From: Saccoglossus kowalevskii
Lineage: Eukaryota > Hemichordata > Enteropneusta > Harrimaniidae
Reading direction: 5' to 3'
DNA length: 20,745 nt
NCBI RefSeq assembly: GCF_000003605.2
Contig: NW_003147776.1
Span: 79,490 to 100,234 of the forward strand
In this document: positions 3,213 through 19,010 of the stretch, in pieces
Numbering within the stretch: the first letter of the stretch is position 1
Layout: every line of letters starts with the position of its first letter
Notes under the pieces: model-generated
Told to the model about the DNA's origin: nothing
What the model saw: the letters and a program-made list of their open reading frames with translations, nothing else
Databases searched by the model: none
Made by a program: the position numbers and the translations under genes

Positions 3213-3338
3213 TTACCCGCTACCCTGAGTTTGTTATTAAAACAGCTGAACAGCGATTACAGAACACGAATGGCACTGAATGATATAGACAATATGTTCA
3301 ACTCTGCAGAAGATGACGCGGTCAAAGAAGAATATTAA
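3213..3338 (+). CDS. Candidate terminal coding exon, unidentified protein
   Basis: Reading directly from the acceptor gives 41 codons and then TAA. The peptide starts LPATLSLLLKQLNSDYRTRM and ends in an acidic tail, FNSAEDDAVKEEY. The composition (leucine-rich amphipathic start, charged C-terminus, few rare residues) looks like genuine protein rather than chance translation. There is no ATG in frame upstream before a TGA at 3186, so it can only be an internal or last exon. A poly(A) signal AATAAA lies about 235 nt downstream, which fits a last exon with a short 3' UTR. I do not recognise the family. The preceding exon is not visible, so it probably lies left of the window, which would put the 34-bp array in the last intron. 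Phase 0 is assumed because the other two frames close early. A chance ORF after a T-rich tract remains possible. Confidence 0.5.
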   Translation, partial: LPATLSLLLKQLNSDYRTRMALNDIDNMFNSAEDDAVKEEY

Positions 3339-7799: not shown

Positions 7800-8155
7800 A
7801 TATAATGTGTATTCACCCATAGACGGACGTGAGCGTTTTCACTGTTTTCAGCAGCAAAAATTTGAATGATTATCCTGTTATTGTTGGTGGTGATTTTAAT
7901 TGTAAACCTGACATTGACCGTAATGGCGGTAGGGAGCCAGACATGCACACGTCGTACGCACCAGTCTTTGTGCTTTAAAGGTTCAAGTTAATCTATGCAT
8001 GGCGTCATCACCATGGCAGCAACACAATCTTCACATGTGAGCGTGGCAACACTCTCGTACGGTTTGGTAGGTTTTACATCTACAAGCACATGCGCAGCTG
8101 TCTGAATGCTATTGAAATACACAATGCATTTCAGACTATTCTATAGTGCCATCAA
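7800..8155 (+). pseudogene. AP-endonuclease domain fragment of the Tx1-like LINE
   Basis: NVYSPIDGRER (from 7808, in a different frame) corresponds to the NVYAPN-type motif of apurinic/apyrimidinic-like LINE endonucleases. VIVGGDFNCKPDIDRNGG (7880-7933) contains the GGDFN signature, in which Asp and Asn are catalytic. Further on, FGRFYIYKHM and an altered SDH-type segment (FQTILxCHQTD, where the usual reading is FSDH) close the domain. In the intact family this domain nicks target DNA. Frameshifts between NVYSP and GGDFN, and in-frame stops after VFVL, show that it is inactive. The N-terminal endonuclease motifs are missing. Confidence 0.8.
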
Positions 8156-8399
8156 ACTGACTGACAACATGAAGCAAAATCCAGTCTGGTGTTTGAATAG
8201 TAATGTCCTTACAGAATTATGGGTCCAGTGGCAAACTGAACGTAATACTTTCAAACATGTGCAAACACGGAAGGACATTGGGAAGCACAAAATCCGAAAT
8301 GTTGTTACAAGACTACTGTCATTTCAATAGTAGAGAAAATAAAATAAAGAGAAAAAGCGCGCCTTAGAAAATGAAATCAATAAAATGGAGCAGTGGCAA

Positions 8400-9050
8400 A
8401 CATTGCTTCTCTTTCCCGTGCTTTTGCCATTCGAACCCGTCACAAATATCTTAATGAGTCTGATGCCCCCAGTTCATACTTTTTCAAACTTGAGAAACTA
8501 AATAGACATAAGGAAAGCGATAGCTTATATTCAGCAGGGAAATGGCCGTCTAAATGAAGACACTTGTGAGATACTTAGTATCACTCGAAATTTTATGCAT
8601 CCCATTACACACGCGATAACATAGATGAGAATCCACAACTTACTATTCTTGAAGGGATGCCAGATCTCTGTGAAACAGATCGTGAAAACCTTGATGAAAC
8701 CTTTTCTTTTGAAGAAGTTACGAAAACAGTTAAAGTTTTTTTCCTGTGGGCACACTCCTGGATTTTTTTTCGAACATTTTGGAATATCATTAGTAGAGGC
8801 ATTCGTCAAGGATGCTCACTCTCCACACCTTATATGTCATTGCCACAGAGCCGTTACTCCATAAAATCAGACAGGATAAAACATCACAGGTATTGTAATC
8901 CACCAGAGTAACGAAATACACAGCAAACTGACAGCATATGCTGACGACATATAAATATTCATTACACGCAAACAAGACTTGGTTGGAAATATATGAGAGT
9001 ACATTGAATTCCAAAATCAACTTTCAAAAGTCAGAGGGAATATGGGTTGT
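8400..9050 (+). pseudogene. Reverse-transcriptase fragment with fused ends (core deleted)
   Basis: Before the RT core, YFFKLEKLNRHKESDSLYSAG, then LNEDTCEILSITRNFYASHY, then LCETDRENLDETFSFEEVTK match the usual 'YFF.LEK....', 'EIL....FY..LY' and 'E.E.PIT..E' sequence that precedes the palm. At about 8760-8790 the text EFF-like FFRTFWNII, normally the 'SPG.DGLP.EFY..FW' region, runs straight into GIRQGCSLS, normally the 'G.RQGCPLSP' motif some 150 residues further on. The YRPISLLN and motif A region is therefore missing. After it come a shifted ADDI-like stretch near 8938-8952 and KSEGIW. The fragment cannot encode an active polymerase. Confidence 0.8.
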
Positions 9051-9119
9051 CAGCTGGCGAAACATCAACAGCTCTCTCCTGGGTATTAAGTGGACCTGTA
9101 CGGGCTAAGACAGTCATAG

Positions 9120-10115
9120 ACAAACACTGGACTGAATTAAAGCAAAAAGTTGAAAAAATTGAGTTTTAGGCGTTTTTTAGGCGTTTTGCCCCTGCAATGT
9201 CTTTCAGAGGGCGTGCACTGGTAATAAACAATTTGCTTTATCCCAGTATTTTTATAGCTTTTATAGTTTGTCACCGTCCCCTAATATTGTTTCCCCACTT
9301 CAAGGTTCTTTGTAAACTTTTTTTTTGGCAAGGCCGACACTGAGTGCAGGCGGAAACTTTGTATTTGCACAGAGAAAATGGTGGGCAATATGTCACACAC
9401 TTACCATCTCGCATTGACATTATGCACCTTGAGTACGTGCAACGGTATTTATACTCCGATTATGATGATCGTGTATTAAATTTACAGATTATTTTTTTTT
9501 TCAATCTAGCCGGTAATCTGTCGTATGCAAACACTTATTATGCACTACACTCTACTGAATTTCATTAACTTCCTGCATTTACTCTGACTTGCTACGCTGT
9601 TGGAAATCACTTGCCAAGAAGTGAATTTTTAATGACTCAAACGTTACCGACATTCTTGCGGAATCATTGTTTAACAACCCACATATTTTTCATCCAGTGC
9701 GGAATGGACCATTTCTTTTAAAACACTTCGCCACCGCGGGCGGTTGGAGGGTACACGACCTGTTTGGCTTTCAAAATAACACCTGGCTGTCAGCGCTTTT
9801 TAGTTGTTAATAAAGTCAATATACACTCCAGACGCATACTTGACCTTAGTTTGGATGTTGTGCATAATGGTACTCCTGGTAAATGGAAAGCAATCGTAAA
9901 TACAAAATTAGAAGACAACTTGATAAATCAACCTTTATTCAGTTTGAGTTTTCAGCTACATTTCTAAGGTGAGCTGAATTTGCCACTATACAAACTTCAA
10001 AAAGGCGCTACATACAAATACCTCATAGCGGTTCTGAACAAAACTCGTCATTCGGATAGACTTGAAAATGTGTGGCGTGATCTACTGACCTTGCCTTCAT
10101 GCCTAGGCTTTTTGT
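9120..10115 (+). pseudogene. C-terminal region of Tx1-like LINE ORF2, decayed
   Basis: Recognisable pieces in shifting frames include HWTELKQKVEKIEF, RGRALVINNLLYPSIF, FFWQGRH, an EGGQ-like ENGGQYVTHL, LEYVQRYLYSD, FFFNLAGNLSYANTYYAL, LAKK, HPVRNGPFLLKHF, GGWRVHDLFGF and YKYLIAVLNKTRHSDRLENVWRDLL. The order matches Tx1-type elements, in which this long region follows RT. At least one TAG/TGA and several frameshifts occur. The terminal zinc-knuckle segment usually found after WR..L is absent. Confidence 0.75.
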
Positions 10116-14613: not shown

Positions 14614-16650
14614 AAGTCTTTACTGACCGAAATACAAGCTTTACTGAACGAATGACAACCATTACTGACCAAATAAAAACTTTCACTAACCGAAAGACAG
14701 CACTGACTGACCGAATGACGACCTTTACTGACCGAAACACAATCTTTACTGATTGAATGAAAACTTTTACTGACCAAATGAAACATTACTGGGCGAATGA
14801 CAATCTTTACTGGCCAAACGACTGCATTTACTAAGCGAATCACATTCTTTACTGACCGAATGACAGAAGCTACCGATCAGATGGCAACCATTACTAACCG
14901 AATGACAATATTTACTGACTGAACGACACCTTTACTGACTGGATGACACCATTATTGACAGAATCCACAATCTTTATTGACCAAATCACTACCTTAACTG
15001 ACCGGCTTTCAGCATTTACTGGCCGAATGACAGTATTTACTGAACGGCTTTCAGCATTTACTGGCCGAATGACAGTATTTACTGAACGGCTTACAGCATT
15101 TACTGGCCGAATGACAGTATTTACTGAACGGCTTACAGCATTTACTGGCCGAATGACAGTATTTACTGAACGGCTTACAGCATTTACTGGCCGAATGACA
15201 TCATTTACCCACCGACTGACAAACTCAACAGACAAAAACACATCATTTACTGACCGAATGACAACCTTTACTGAACGATTAACAGCATTCACTGGCTTGA
15301 TGACAAATTTTCTGAACAAAAGACAGCATTTACCAACTGAATGACTACTTTTACTGATCAAATGACAGCATTGACTAACCAAATCACAACCATTCCCGTC
15401 CAGATGACACATGTACTGACCAAATGACAGCATTTACCCACAGAATGACAAACTCGACAGGCCGTAACACAGCATTTATTGACCGGATGATAACCCTTTA
15501 CTGAACGATTGATATCGCTGACTGAGAGAATGACAATCCTTACTGACTGAATGACAACCTTTACTGAGAGTAAAACAACATCAAATACCCGGATGACAAC
15601 CTTTATTGACCGAATCACACAACTATTCCCGGCCAAATGACACTTTTACTGACCAAATGACTACTTTTACTGACCAAATGACGGCATTTACTCACAGAAT
15701 GACAAACACTACAGGCCGGAACACAGCATTTATTGACCGCATTTACTGACCGAATGACAGAATTTGCTGACCAGATTACTGAATCGACTGGCCGAATGAC
15801 ATCATTTACTGACCGGATGACGACCAATATTGACCGAATCACGACCTTTACTGACGAAATGACTACTTTTAATGATCGAATGACAGCATTTACTGAGCAA
15901 AACACAACTTTTACTGACCAAATGACAGCATTTACCCACCGAATGACAAACTCTACTGGCCGAAAGACGGCATTTATTGACCGGATGATAACCTTTACAG
16001 AACGATTGACAGCATTTACTGATTGGATGATACCTTTATTGACAGAATAACAACATTAACTGTCCGACCAGATGACAACATTGACTGGCCGACTGACAAC
16101 ATTGACTGGCCGGATTACAATCTTCATTGACAGGATGATAACCTTTATTGACTAGATGACACCCATACTGACTGAATGACACATTTCCTGACCAAATCAC
16201 AACCTTTCCTGACCACATGACAGCATTTACGCACCGAATCACAATCTTTCCTGACCGCATGACAGCATTTACGCACCGAATCACAAACTCTACTGGCCGA
16301 AATAAAGAATTTATTGAGCGGATGATAATCTTTACTTGCCGAAACACAGCATTTACTAGCTGGTTGGTAAATTTTCCGACCGAATGTCAGCATATTCTGA
16401 CCGAATGATAAACTTTAATGTCAGAATGACAGCATTTGCTGATCAAAACACAACCATTCCTGGCCAAATGACAGAATTTACTGACCGGATGACTGCTTTT
16501 AATTATGGAATGACAGCATTTACTGAGCAAAACACAAACTTTACTCACCGAATAACAAACTCTACAGGCCGACAGAATTTAGTGACCGAACGACAACCTT
16601 TACTTGCCGAAACACAGTATTTATTGACAGGATGATAACCTTTACTGAAT
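14614..16650. repeat. 21-bp minisatellite array, left part (about 97 units)
   Basis: The unit TTTACTGACCGAATGACAGC plus one base is repeated head-to-tail over 2 kb with substitutions, mostly at the GACC/GGCC/GAAC and CAGCA/CAACC positions. Because 21 is divisible by 3, every frame shows heptapeptide repeats (FTDRMTA forward, VIRSVNA reverse), and several ORFs of 60-170 codons result on both strands. Stops are scattered and the forward open stretches are not all in the same frame, so indels have not been selected against. I read it as a non-coding satellite. A recurrent longer pattern (CC..CGAATGACAAACTC followed by a CATTTATTGACCGGATGATAA block) returns every 230-340 bp. Confidence 0.95.
15003..15203. 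repeat. 42-bp higher-order repeat (4.8 copies)
   Basis: The dimer of a CGGCTTWCAGCATTTACTG unit and a GCCGAATGACAGTATTTACTG unit starts at 15003, 15045, 15087, 15129 and 15171, always 42 bp apart and nearly identical. This is the most recently homogenised part of the 21-bp array. Confidence 0.95.
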
Positions 16651-16727
16651 AAATAATAACTTTATTTAATTAAGCGCAACAATTCCAACATATGAAGATC
16701 AAAGGCGCTGATACAATAAACAATCAG

Positions 16728-18505
16728 TCAAATATTAAAAGCACATTGAAATAAGTGCGTTTTCAGTCTGGATTTAAAAATGTCTACTGAAGGACTAGAA
16801 CGAACAGACAGAGGTAATTCATTAAAAAGTTTAGGACCTAAATTTTCAAAAGCACGGTCTTTGTATAACACCTTGGACTTTTTACTACTCATCTGACGAG
16901 TTTTAATAAGAAACTTCGATTCAGATCTTAAACTACGACTCGGTACATAAAATTCGATTAATTCACATAGATAATTTGGGGCAAAACCATACAAAGATTT
17001 ATACACTAGTAAAAGTAATTTGAAATTGATTCTTTGTACAACTGGTAACCAATGAAGTTTAATAAAAATGTCTGTAATGTGGTCATATTTTCGAGCACGT
17101 GCTGCTGAATTTTGTACACTAATAAGATGTTTTATCTTAGTTACAGGGAGACCAGACAATAATGAATTACAGCTGTCTGAACGAGAAGATATGAAAGCAT
17201 CAACCAACTTGCCAGTATCAGATTGGGATAATGATTTGCGAATACGATTAATATTTTTTAGATGGGAATATCCAGATCTACAAATAGTAGAAATGTGTGT
17301 TTCCATAGATAGATGCGAATCAAACAAGACACCTAACTTGACGAAGCACTAACCAATTCTTCACTAAATGCGATACTAGACAAAGAACTCGAGTCTTGTG
17401 AGAAACTTCCAGACGACATGGACACAAATTCAGTTTTCGACACATTCAAAAGTAGGAAATTACAAGACGTCCAATCGCTAACATCTTGAATACATGTTTT
17501 GAAGTATCACCCGGGTGCGAATTTGATCATCTTCAGAAACCGATAAATAAATCTGTGTGTCATCGGCGTAAAAATGATATTTTACGCCGTGACATCGCAA
17601 TAACTCGTCCAATGGACGCATGTACATTGAGAACAATAATGGCCCTAAAACGGAGCCCCGTGGAACACCGGTTTATAATATAGACGTCATATCAGAAAAT
17701 ACTTTTCCAATTTTCACTTTTTGAATGGGTTACTCAAATACGACTCAAACCATTTAATGAGACCATTCAAACCAAAATTTGATCTCAACCTATCGATGAG
17801 AATCCTATGATTCACAGTATCAAAAGCGGCTGAAAGATCCAAAAGTACGAGAGCAACTGAATTATCAATACTGCATAGTACATCATTAGCGACCCCACTC
17901 GTTTCAGTGCTATGTGCGGCCCGATACGCTGATTGAAACTCTTCATACAACGAATAATTGTCTAAATGTTGTTTCACTCTGGATGCAACGACACGTTCAA
18001 GGACTTTAGATATAAAAGACAAATTAGAAATCGGTCGATACTTTTTCAGTATATTTGAATCCAACGATGCTTTCTTGAGCAGAGGTTTAATCAGCGCACA
18101 TTTCATTTTCTCAGCAGTCCAAATCACACGAAGCCGACGACGATTTTTTTATAATTTTAATCATTTCATCCTCCGTGGCTGATTCAAAACATTCCATTGC
18201 ATCACCAGAGCACTTGTGCAGTTCGTTAAAACGGTTTCCATTCAATAAATTTATATTTACTCCTTGATTGAATTTCTTAATCTTGTCCACGAAAAACATG
18301 CTAAACAAATTCGCTAAATTTATTTTGTTATCGTGAATCGGCAACGAATTCAAATTATTTGTCGAGCCTAGAAGACCATTTACGATGGAAAACAGTTTCT
18401 TTTGGTCACCATTACAATCCGCGATCTTATCAGCGAAATAACTCCTACTTGATACTTCAATAAGATCATTAACCTTATTTCGTGTAGATTTGGCGATGGA
18501 CAGTT
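16728..18505 (-). pseudogene. LINE reverse-transcriptase ORF, frameshifted, with a deletion
   Basis: The minus-strand order follows the CR1/L2/Jockey superfamily. The pre-RT block RSYFADKIADCNGDQKKLF (about 18445-18390) is followed by NLFSMFF and by KKSSSASCDLD near 18130. The frame then changes into MKCALIKPLLKK and YRPISNLSFISKVLERVV. Motif A, LLDLSAAFDTVNH, has its Asp codon at 17819-17821. [13 protein letters not shown] follows just after an in-frame TAA, and the catalytic YADD box is at 17559-17570. The C-terminal part (17327-16728, 199 residues) is intact and contains HLKNINRIRKSLS, LHWLPVVQRINFKLLL and the closing FKSRLKTHLF. Intact elements normally have about 40 residues (PIP..LLK..L..) between SCDLD and MKCAL; these are missing here. 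At least three frame changes and one stop make it inactive. Both catalytic Asp motifs are nevertheless preserved, so decay is moderate. Confidence 0.92.
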
Positions 18506-18616
18506 AAACCAGTTCGCTGCCACGTCAACCAGTGCTAAACTAAACACCAACACAAGCAGAATGCCAGGATTTATCATCTTTGTGAATGTTTGTCGACGTA
18601 TTAGGTGAACACCAGG
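18500..18616 (-). pseudogene. Captured non-LINE segment: 39-nt leader plus signal-peptide start
   Basis: This segment is inside the insertion, between the target duplication and the first LINE-like residues. On the minus strand it has 39 nt of leader (18616-18578) and then ATG at 18577-18575. The peptide has MINP, a hydrophobic stretch GILLVLVFSLALVDVAA and then NWFNC. A V-A-A before N fits the -3/-1 rule for signal peptidase, so the mature protein would start at Asn-Trp with a Cys a few residues later. LINE similarity (KSTRNKVNDLIE) starts in another frame at about 18497; the signal-peptide frame continues as nonsense to 18380. LINE proteins of this group have no secretory signal, so this looks like the 5' end of an mRNA for a secreted, possibly cysteine-containing, peptide joined to the LINE. 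The family is not recognised. Confidence 0.6.
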
Positions 18617-19010
18617 GAATGATCGACAGCATTTACTGACTGGATGAGAATCTTTACTGTCAGAATGACAGCATGTACTGACCGAATGAGAATTGTTACT
18701 GACCGAATGACAATCTTTACTGACTAAATGAGAGCATCTAATGACTGATTGACAAACTTTACTAGCCGGATGGCCGTAAAACATCATTAACTAACCGGAT
18801 GACTACCTTTACCGACCGAATGTCAGCATTTACCACACCACTCACAACTTTTACTGACCGAATGAAAAATTTCACTGGCCGAATGACAGCATTTACTAAC
18901 CGAATGACAATCTTTACTGTCAGAATGACAGTATTTACTGCCAGGATGACAATCTGTACTGCCTGGCAAACTTTACTAGCCGGATGGCAGTCTATTACCG
19001 ATGAACGACT
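18617..19010. repeat. 21-bp minisatellite array, right part (about 18 units)
   Basis: Continuation of the same unit after the LINE insertion (TTTACTGACCGAATGACA.. and variants with TTTACTGTCAGAATGAC and TTTACTAGCCGGATGGC). It decays towards 19010. The phase across the insertion matches the left part once one GAAT is removed. Confidence 0.95.

Follow-up and report, generated by a model that had tools for sequence, protein, structure and literature searches.

The start of a spliced host mRNA at the 5' end of a truncated LINE in Saccoglossus kowalevskii

In a 20,745-nucleotide stretch of the Saccoglossus kowalevskii genome (hereafter the window), we identified a LINE insertion that opens, at its 5' end, with about 94 nt copied from the start of a host mRNA; this mRNA had been spliced, stands in the sense orientation and encodes a product with a predicted signal peptide. 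We consider it likely that the LINE enzyme switched from its own RNA to the mature host mRNA during target-primed reverse transcription. An earlier note on this DNA had proposed that the reverse transcriptase jumped into the mRNA of a secreted protein; the fusion of a host mRNA to the LINE is borne out here, and the step from fused RNAs to a jump of the enzyme is one that we infer.

The mRNA copy and its source-like gene

A search of the joint region against the genome (572 Mb in 4830 contigs) returned the window itself, copies of the satellite that surrounds the insertion, one LINE copy (C1148), and two blocks on contig C594 that are collinear, on the same strand, and 95% and 85% identical. 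The foreign segment alone returned the same two C594 blocks (E values of 2.9e-11 and 1.9e-10) in a shallow search that skipped very common words, scored both of its two first-look candidates, and places the segment at a minimum of two loci, the window and the C594 gene. All parts of the insertion lie on the minus strand of the window. Positions 18578 to 18619 are a copy of exon 1 of the C594 gene, a 42-nt 5' leader, with 40 of 42 bases identical, the last three positions (18617 to 18619) overlapping the target site duplication. Positions 18526 to 18577 are a copy of the beginning of exon 2, comprising the ATG (18577 to 18575) and a hydrophobic signal-peptide start (MINPGILLVLVFSLALV, which is not LINE sequence), 17 codons plus one base in all, ending in the middle of the exon. 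Between them, at 18577/18578, the window aligns to the spliced exons with no gap, the leader passing directly into the ATG, and the 87-bp GT...AG intron of the gene is missing; the template was therefore a spliced mRNA. From the ATG, the exon 2 copy is identical to the gene over 35 bases; beyond these, the two differ in length by 3 bases and at several substituted positions, with the frame kept (FSLA versus LGT). Because this match is imperfect, the mRNA may have come from an allele or a paralogue of the C594 gene.

Read from genomic DNA alone, the predicted gene (L009) occupies C594:219616-221190 on the minus strand, and 221190 is its first base to match the window. The model has a TATA box at 221224, the 42-nt exon 1, the 87-bp intron (GTTACAC...TCCTCAG), an exon 2 that opens with the ATG, and a second intron of 381 bp, with a 354-residue frame running over two coding exons to a stop. 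The predicted protein begins MINPGILLVLVLGTLVVDA/TVDVRG, and a von Heijne-type matrix gives its signal peptide a score of 6.75 with a single clear site (VDA/TVDVR). The signal is followed by alanine/proline repeats on the pattern NAIPASAAPTRGS and by a cysteine-rich repeat, CTNDCxWxxDGxCDDGG...GTDCxDCG (CxxxCxxxxDGxCDDGG...GTDCxDCG), that occurs four times. No Pfam family scored above its cut-off against the protein, and the cysteine repeats had no match in the PDB. The search for a source gene that the earlier note had called for thus ended at a locus with the same leader and the same signal-peptide start, a different mature protein, and an intron that the copy lacks.

The copy may reach nearly to the start of the transcript. 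Its first base lies 34 nt downstream of the first base of the TATA box, close to where a cap would be predicted, and a fair initiator (GTTAGTTC, judged by consensus) would set the cap 2 nt farther upstream. The end of copying would then correspond to +3, and possibly up to +6, of the predicted transcript; this range arises because TTC, with which the copy opens, is shared with the target duplication.

The earlier note had described a leader, an ATG and a hydrophobic segment at the 5' end of the insertion, and these are real and distinct from the LINE. Its boundary at 18500 was misplaced, as the LINE begins at about 18526. The VAA cleavage site and the NWFNC that it had read as the start of a mature peptide, at 18500 to 18525 on the minus strand, proved to be an off-frame reading of LINE DNA: the LINE frame of the window copy reads WQRTGLTVHRQIY here, as does C1148, and C1148 gives DVAANWFNC in the same off-frame. 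The hydrophobicity of the segment is unusual: counting ATG frames of 25 codons or longer, it was reached in 12 of 20,000 random segments with the composition of the window and in 21 of 20,000 with its own. The match to the C594 gene is much the stronger evidence. As a signal peptide, the open reading frame in the window scored weakly, at 3.58 on a von Heijne-type matrix. Among random segments, 248 of 20,000 with the composition of the window and 1,315 of 20,000 with that of the segment attained this value, and a minimum of 15 of the 226 ATG frames in the window (nested frames counted apart) scored higher. This scoring could mislead, because the best cleavage site falls in LINE sequence.

The LINE fragment, its target site and the joint

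The remainder of the insertion, from 16651 to 18525, is a 5'-truncated and decayed LINE fragment of about 1.9 kb that retains a linker region, the reverse transcriptase, the 3' part and a tail, with frameshifts. The reverse transcriptase is recognized as RVT_1 at 17714 to 18127 (4.5e-14; 53.1 bits, cut-off 29.6), and the 5' end of the fragment matches C1148, the sole LINE relative compared, at 86%. Upstream of the joint position C1148 runs on as coding sequence (...NVDIYHARTERRNAERTWRRTGLTVHRQIY), marking the window copy as truncated. Its motifs are suggestive of the CR1/L2-like clade; matches to chains of L1 ORF2, of R2 and of one RNA-directed DNA polymerase had E values of 0.005 to 0.33, too weak for clade placement. 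Compared with what related elements presumably carry, the LINE seems about 30 codons short at 18100 to 18130 on the minus strand, between CDLD and TAEKMKCALIKP; either a simple deletion or the removal of a piece by splicing may account for the gap.

In a 200 kb sample (contigs C594, C3808 and C1-C3) searched together with loci L009-L034, there was no further LINE copy beyond those of the window and C1148. Pattern searches for LINE relatives fitted 4 stretches in IMG/VR and 594 in GTDB genomes, none of them confirmed in either collection, and the joint region had no relatives among plasmids; these outcomes are expected, as the genome is animal-like. Elsewhere in the window, plus-strand remnants at 7850 to 9960, among them RGIRQGCSLS near 8800, resemble by eye what is presumably another LINE in an advanced state of decay. 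A separate plus-strand stretch at 3213 to 3338 resembles a terminal coding exon, with the acceptor TTTTGCAG leading into LPATLSLLLKQLNSDYRTRMALNDIDNMFNSAEDDAVKEEY and a stop codon, and had no match in the PDB.

The complete insert spans 16651 to 18616 (1966 bp) and lies inside a 21-bp satellite on contig C3808. It is flanked by two copies of GAAT, at 16647 to 16650 and at 18617 to 18620, so that the duplication around the whole insert is only 4 bp long. At the right copy, the three bases on the insert side (TTC on the minus strand) match the mRNA as well. When the flanks are joined after one GAAT, the TTTACT/TTTATTG anchors of the satellite fall at 8, 29, 50, 71 and 92, an exact 21-bp register that fixes the bounds of the insert and agrees with the GAAT target duplication given in the earlier note. 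Inspection of the window sequence by eye revealed neither a poly(A) tract nor a second duplication between the mRNA part and the LINE. The two parts are most simply accounted for by arrival as one insertion, because a single duplication pair and the 21-bp register enclose both, and no tail or duplication lies inside. Long open frames, such as 14912-15433 and 14943-15344, run through the 21/42-bp satellite (14618 to 18961) on either strand; they are repeats and not genes. A second satellite in the window, at 2 to 2283, repeats a 34-bp unit about 68 times in tandem.

The joint itself was placed by a three-way comparison of the window, the C594 gene and C1148. It falls at 18525 to 18527, in the middle of an exon of the gene; one G is shared, and the last mRNA base is either 18527 (joint 18527/18526) or 18526 (joint 18526/18525). 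A mosaic of gene and LINE leaves 1 mismatch in 45 bases at this point, compared with 24 if all the sequence is taken from the gene and 9 if all is taken from the LINE. Ahead of the joint C1148 reads TGAACG, with no AG acceptor, and in the gene one of the two equivalent breakpoints is immediately followed by GT (GTCGATGC). The fold predicted for the RNA of a 200-base stretch of C1148 spanning the joint was unexceptional (z of -1.49; 13 of 200 shuffles folded equally well).

Routes to a chimeric insertion

Template switching fits these observations best, because C1148 lacks an AG at the joint and neither blastn nor tblastn revealed a LINE in the 29.7 kb surrounding the C594 gene. On this model, the LINE enzyme would have started at the 3' end of its own RNA, copied it as far as about GACGTGG during target-primed reverse transcription, left it, and entered the mature mRNA part-way through exon 2. 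It would then have copied the host mRNA to within about 2 to 5 nt of the cap, and the end of the cDNA would have been joined to the target through the 3-nt overlap TTC. It seems reasonably probable that a LINE enzyme outside mammalian L1 here left its own RNA in mid-synthesis, entered a mature mRNA at an internal, non-splice position and copied it approximately to the cap. If the joint did arise by such a jump, LINEs of this kind can carry a secreted-protein leader and start codon to new places without splicing. The chimera in the window is most likely dead and not a functional gene, its copy having decayed.

A similar product could arise before reverse transcription if an RNA ligase joined the 5' fragment of a cut mRNA to a 5'-shortened LINE RNA and the chimera was then reverse transcribed whole. 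RNA ligation has been proposed for U6/L1 chimeras in the consulted sections of PMC13174262, and a joint in the middle of an exon that follows no sequence rule is compatible with it. It would leave an identical picture, with no distinguishing sequence mark at the joint. As it calls for two cleaved ends and an extra enzyme, we regard it as unlikely.

Splicing, in cis or in trans, is a still less probable route. A cryptic donor in exon 2 would have been joined to an acceptor in the LINE RNA and the product retrotransposed, as in the alternative of the earlier note, in which a host exon was spliced to an intronic LINE. The GT that follows one of the two breakpoints would serve as the donor, a LINE variant with an AG at that codon would suffice as the acceptor, and the consulted text of PMC13174262 favors splicing as the origin of several human L1-mRNA chimeras. 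Set against this are the position of the joint within a coding exon, a donor context (GTT/GTCGAT) that is poor by consensus, and the two observations already cited, on C1148 and on the surroundings of the gene, which together leave the intronic alternative disfavored.

Two successive events are very improbable. A truncated LINE would have inserted first, with a fragment of host cDNA captured later at its 5' edge or during repair of its 5' end. DNA repair is able to capture cDNA, which lends this sequence of events some plausibility; the one duplication pair and the 21-bp register nonetheless span both parts, and by eye the joint has no second duplication or tail.

We find it barely conceivable that the segment is the 5' region of the LINE family itself, or an inverted LINE piece left by twin priming, with the look of a signal peptide arising by chance: positions 18500 to 18525 are indeed LINE, but nothing supports such an origin for 18526 to 18619, which C594 matches with the intron precisely removed and which is unlike the 195 bases upstream in C1148 in either orientation (the forward score was reached by 73 of 500 shuffles and the reverse-complement score by 405 of 500). 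Recurrence of the segment in many LINE copies, which the earlier note had said would make it part of the element, was not seen in the one LINE copy compared, C1148, which continues there into LINE coding sequence. The other outcome that the note had named as refuting, no similar gene together with no signal-peptide prediction, did not arise either. Twin priming was considered as a candidate and rejected: it requires an inverted 5' segment, and this one is in the sense orientation relative to both the mRNA and the LINE, which is evidence against it.

Known LINE chimeras

Fusions of LINEs with other RNAs have been described in several lineages, and template switching by a LINE enzyme, which we prefer for the present insertion, has been proposed for some of them. 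The most direct comparison is with human L1, for which the consulted sections of PMC13174262 catalogue 17 chimeras with mRNAs or long noncoding RNAs. Of these, 15 involve the beginning of the transcript, and 6 of the 17 end exactly at splice donors, with 4 more unjudged; the L1 part is mostly near full length, and the authors favor splicing. The insertion described here resembles these human cases, as set out there, in having the sense-strand start of a spliced mRNA on the 5' end of a LINE with target site duplications around the whole. It differs from them in its mid-exon joint, at which C1148 offers no acceptor, and in a LINE truncated to about 1.9 kb; in these respects it is closer to the U6/L1 and fungal MGL chimeras.

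For the U6/L1 chimeras of mammals, either template switching or RNA ligation has been proposed (PMC13174262, in the text consulted; see also PMC4476161). Like the present insertion, they carry a sense host RNA on an often 5'-truncated LINE; in them the host RNA is complete to its 5' end, as it may nearly be here. Their partner is a small nuclear RNA and the fusion is recurrent, whereas the partner in the window is a protein-coding mRNA found once. In Magnaporthe, the MGL LINE has given rise to chimeric retrogenes by template jumps, without notable microhomology as far as the consulted text of PMC2104539 describes them. These too consist of a foreign RNA fused to a LINE 3' fragment, unlike the present insertion in that the partners are the noncoding WEIRD RNA or a SINE. 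The switch motif given for MGL in that text, GCC*A/U, is absent from C1148 at the joint (TGAACG/GACG). Template switching by a CR1 enzyme has also been proposed for PittSINE, a CR1-mobilized SINE of passerine birds, according to the consulted part of PMC5729268. There, as may be the case here, a new 5' RNA head is proposed to have been added by the switch; PittSINE, in contrast, is a tRNA head on a SINE and became an amplifying family.

No mRNA chimera of a CR1/L2-like LINE was named in the titles and abstract openings of the literature searched. Chimeras that join LINEs to mRNAs are already known from human L1, as are those of a fungal LINE with other RNAs, and the present case adds an unusually complete record. 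In an unrelated genome, it combines an identified source gene, a cleanly missing intron, a mid-exon joint and a truncated LINE, and so separates template switching from splicing more clearly than the human catalogue, in which splicing is favored. It also illustrates that chimeras of this kind are recognizable from raw sequence.
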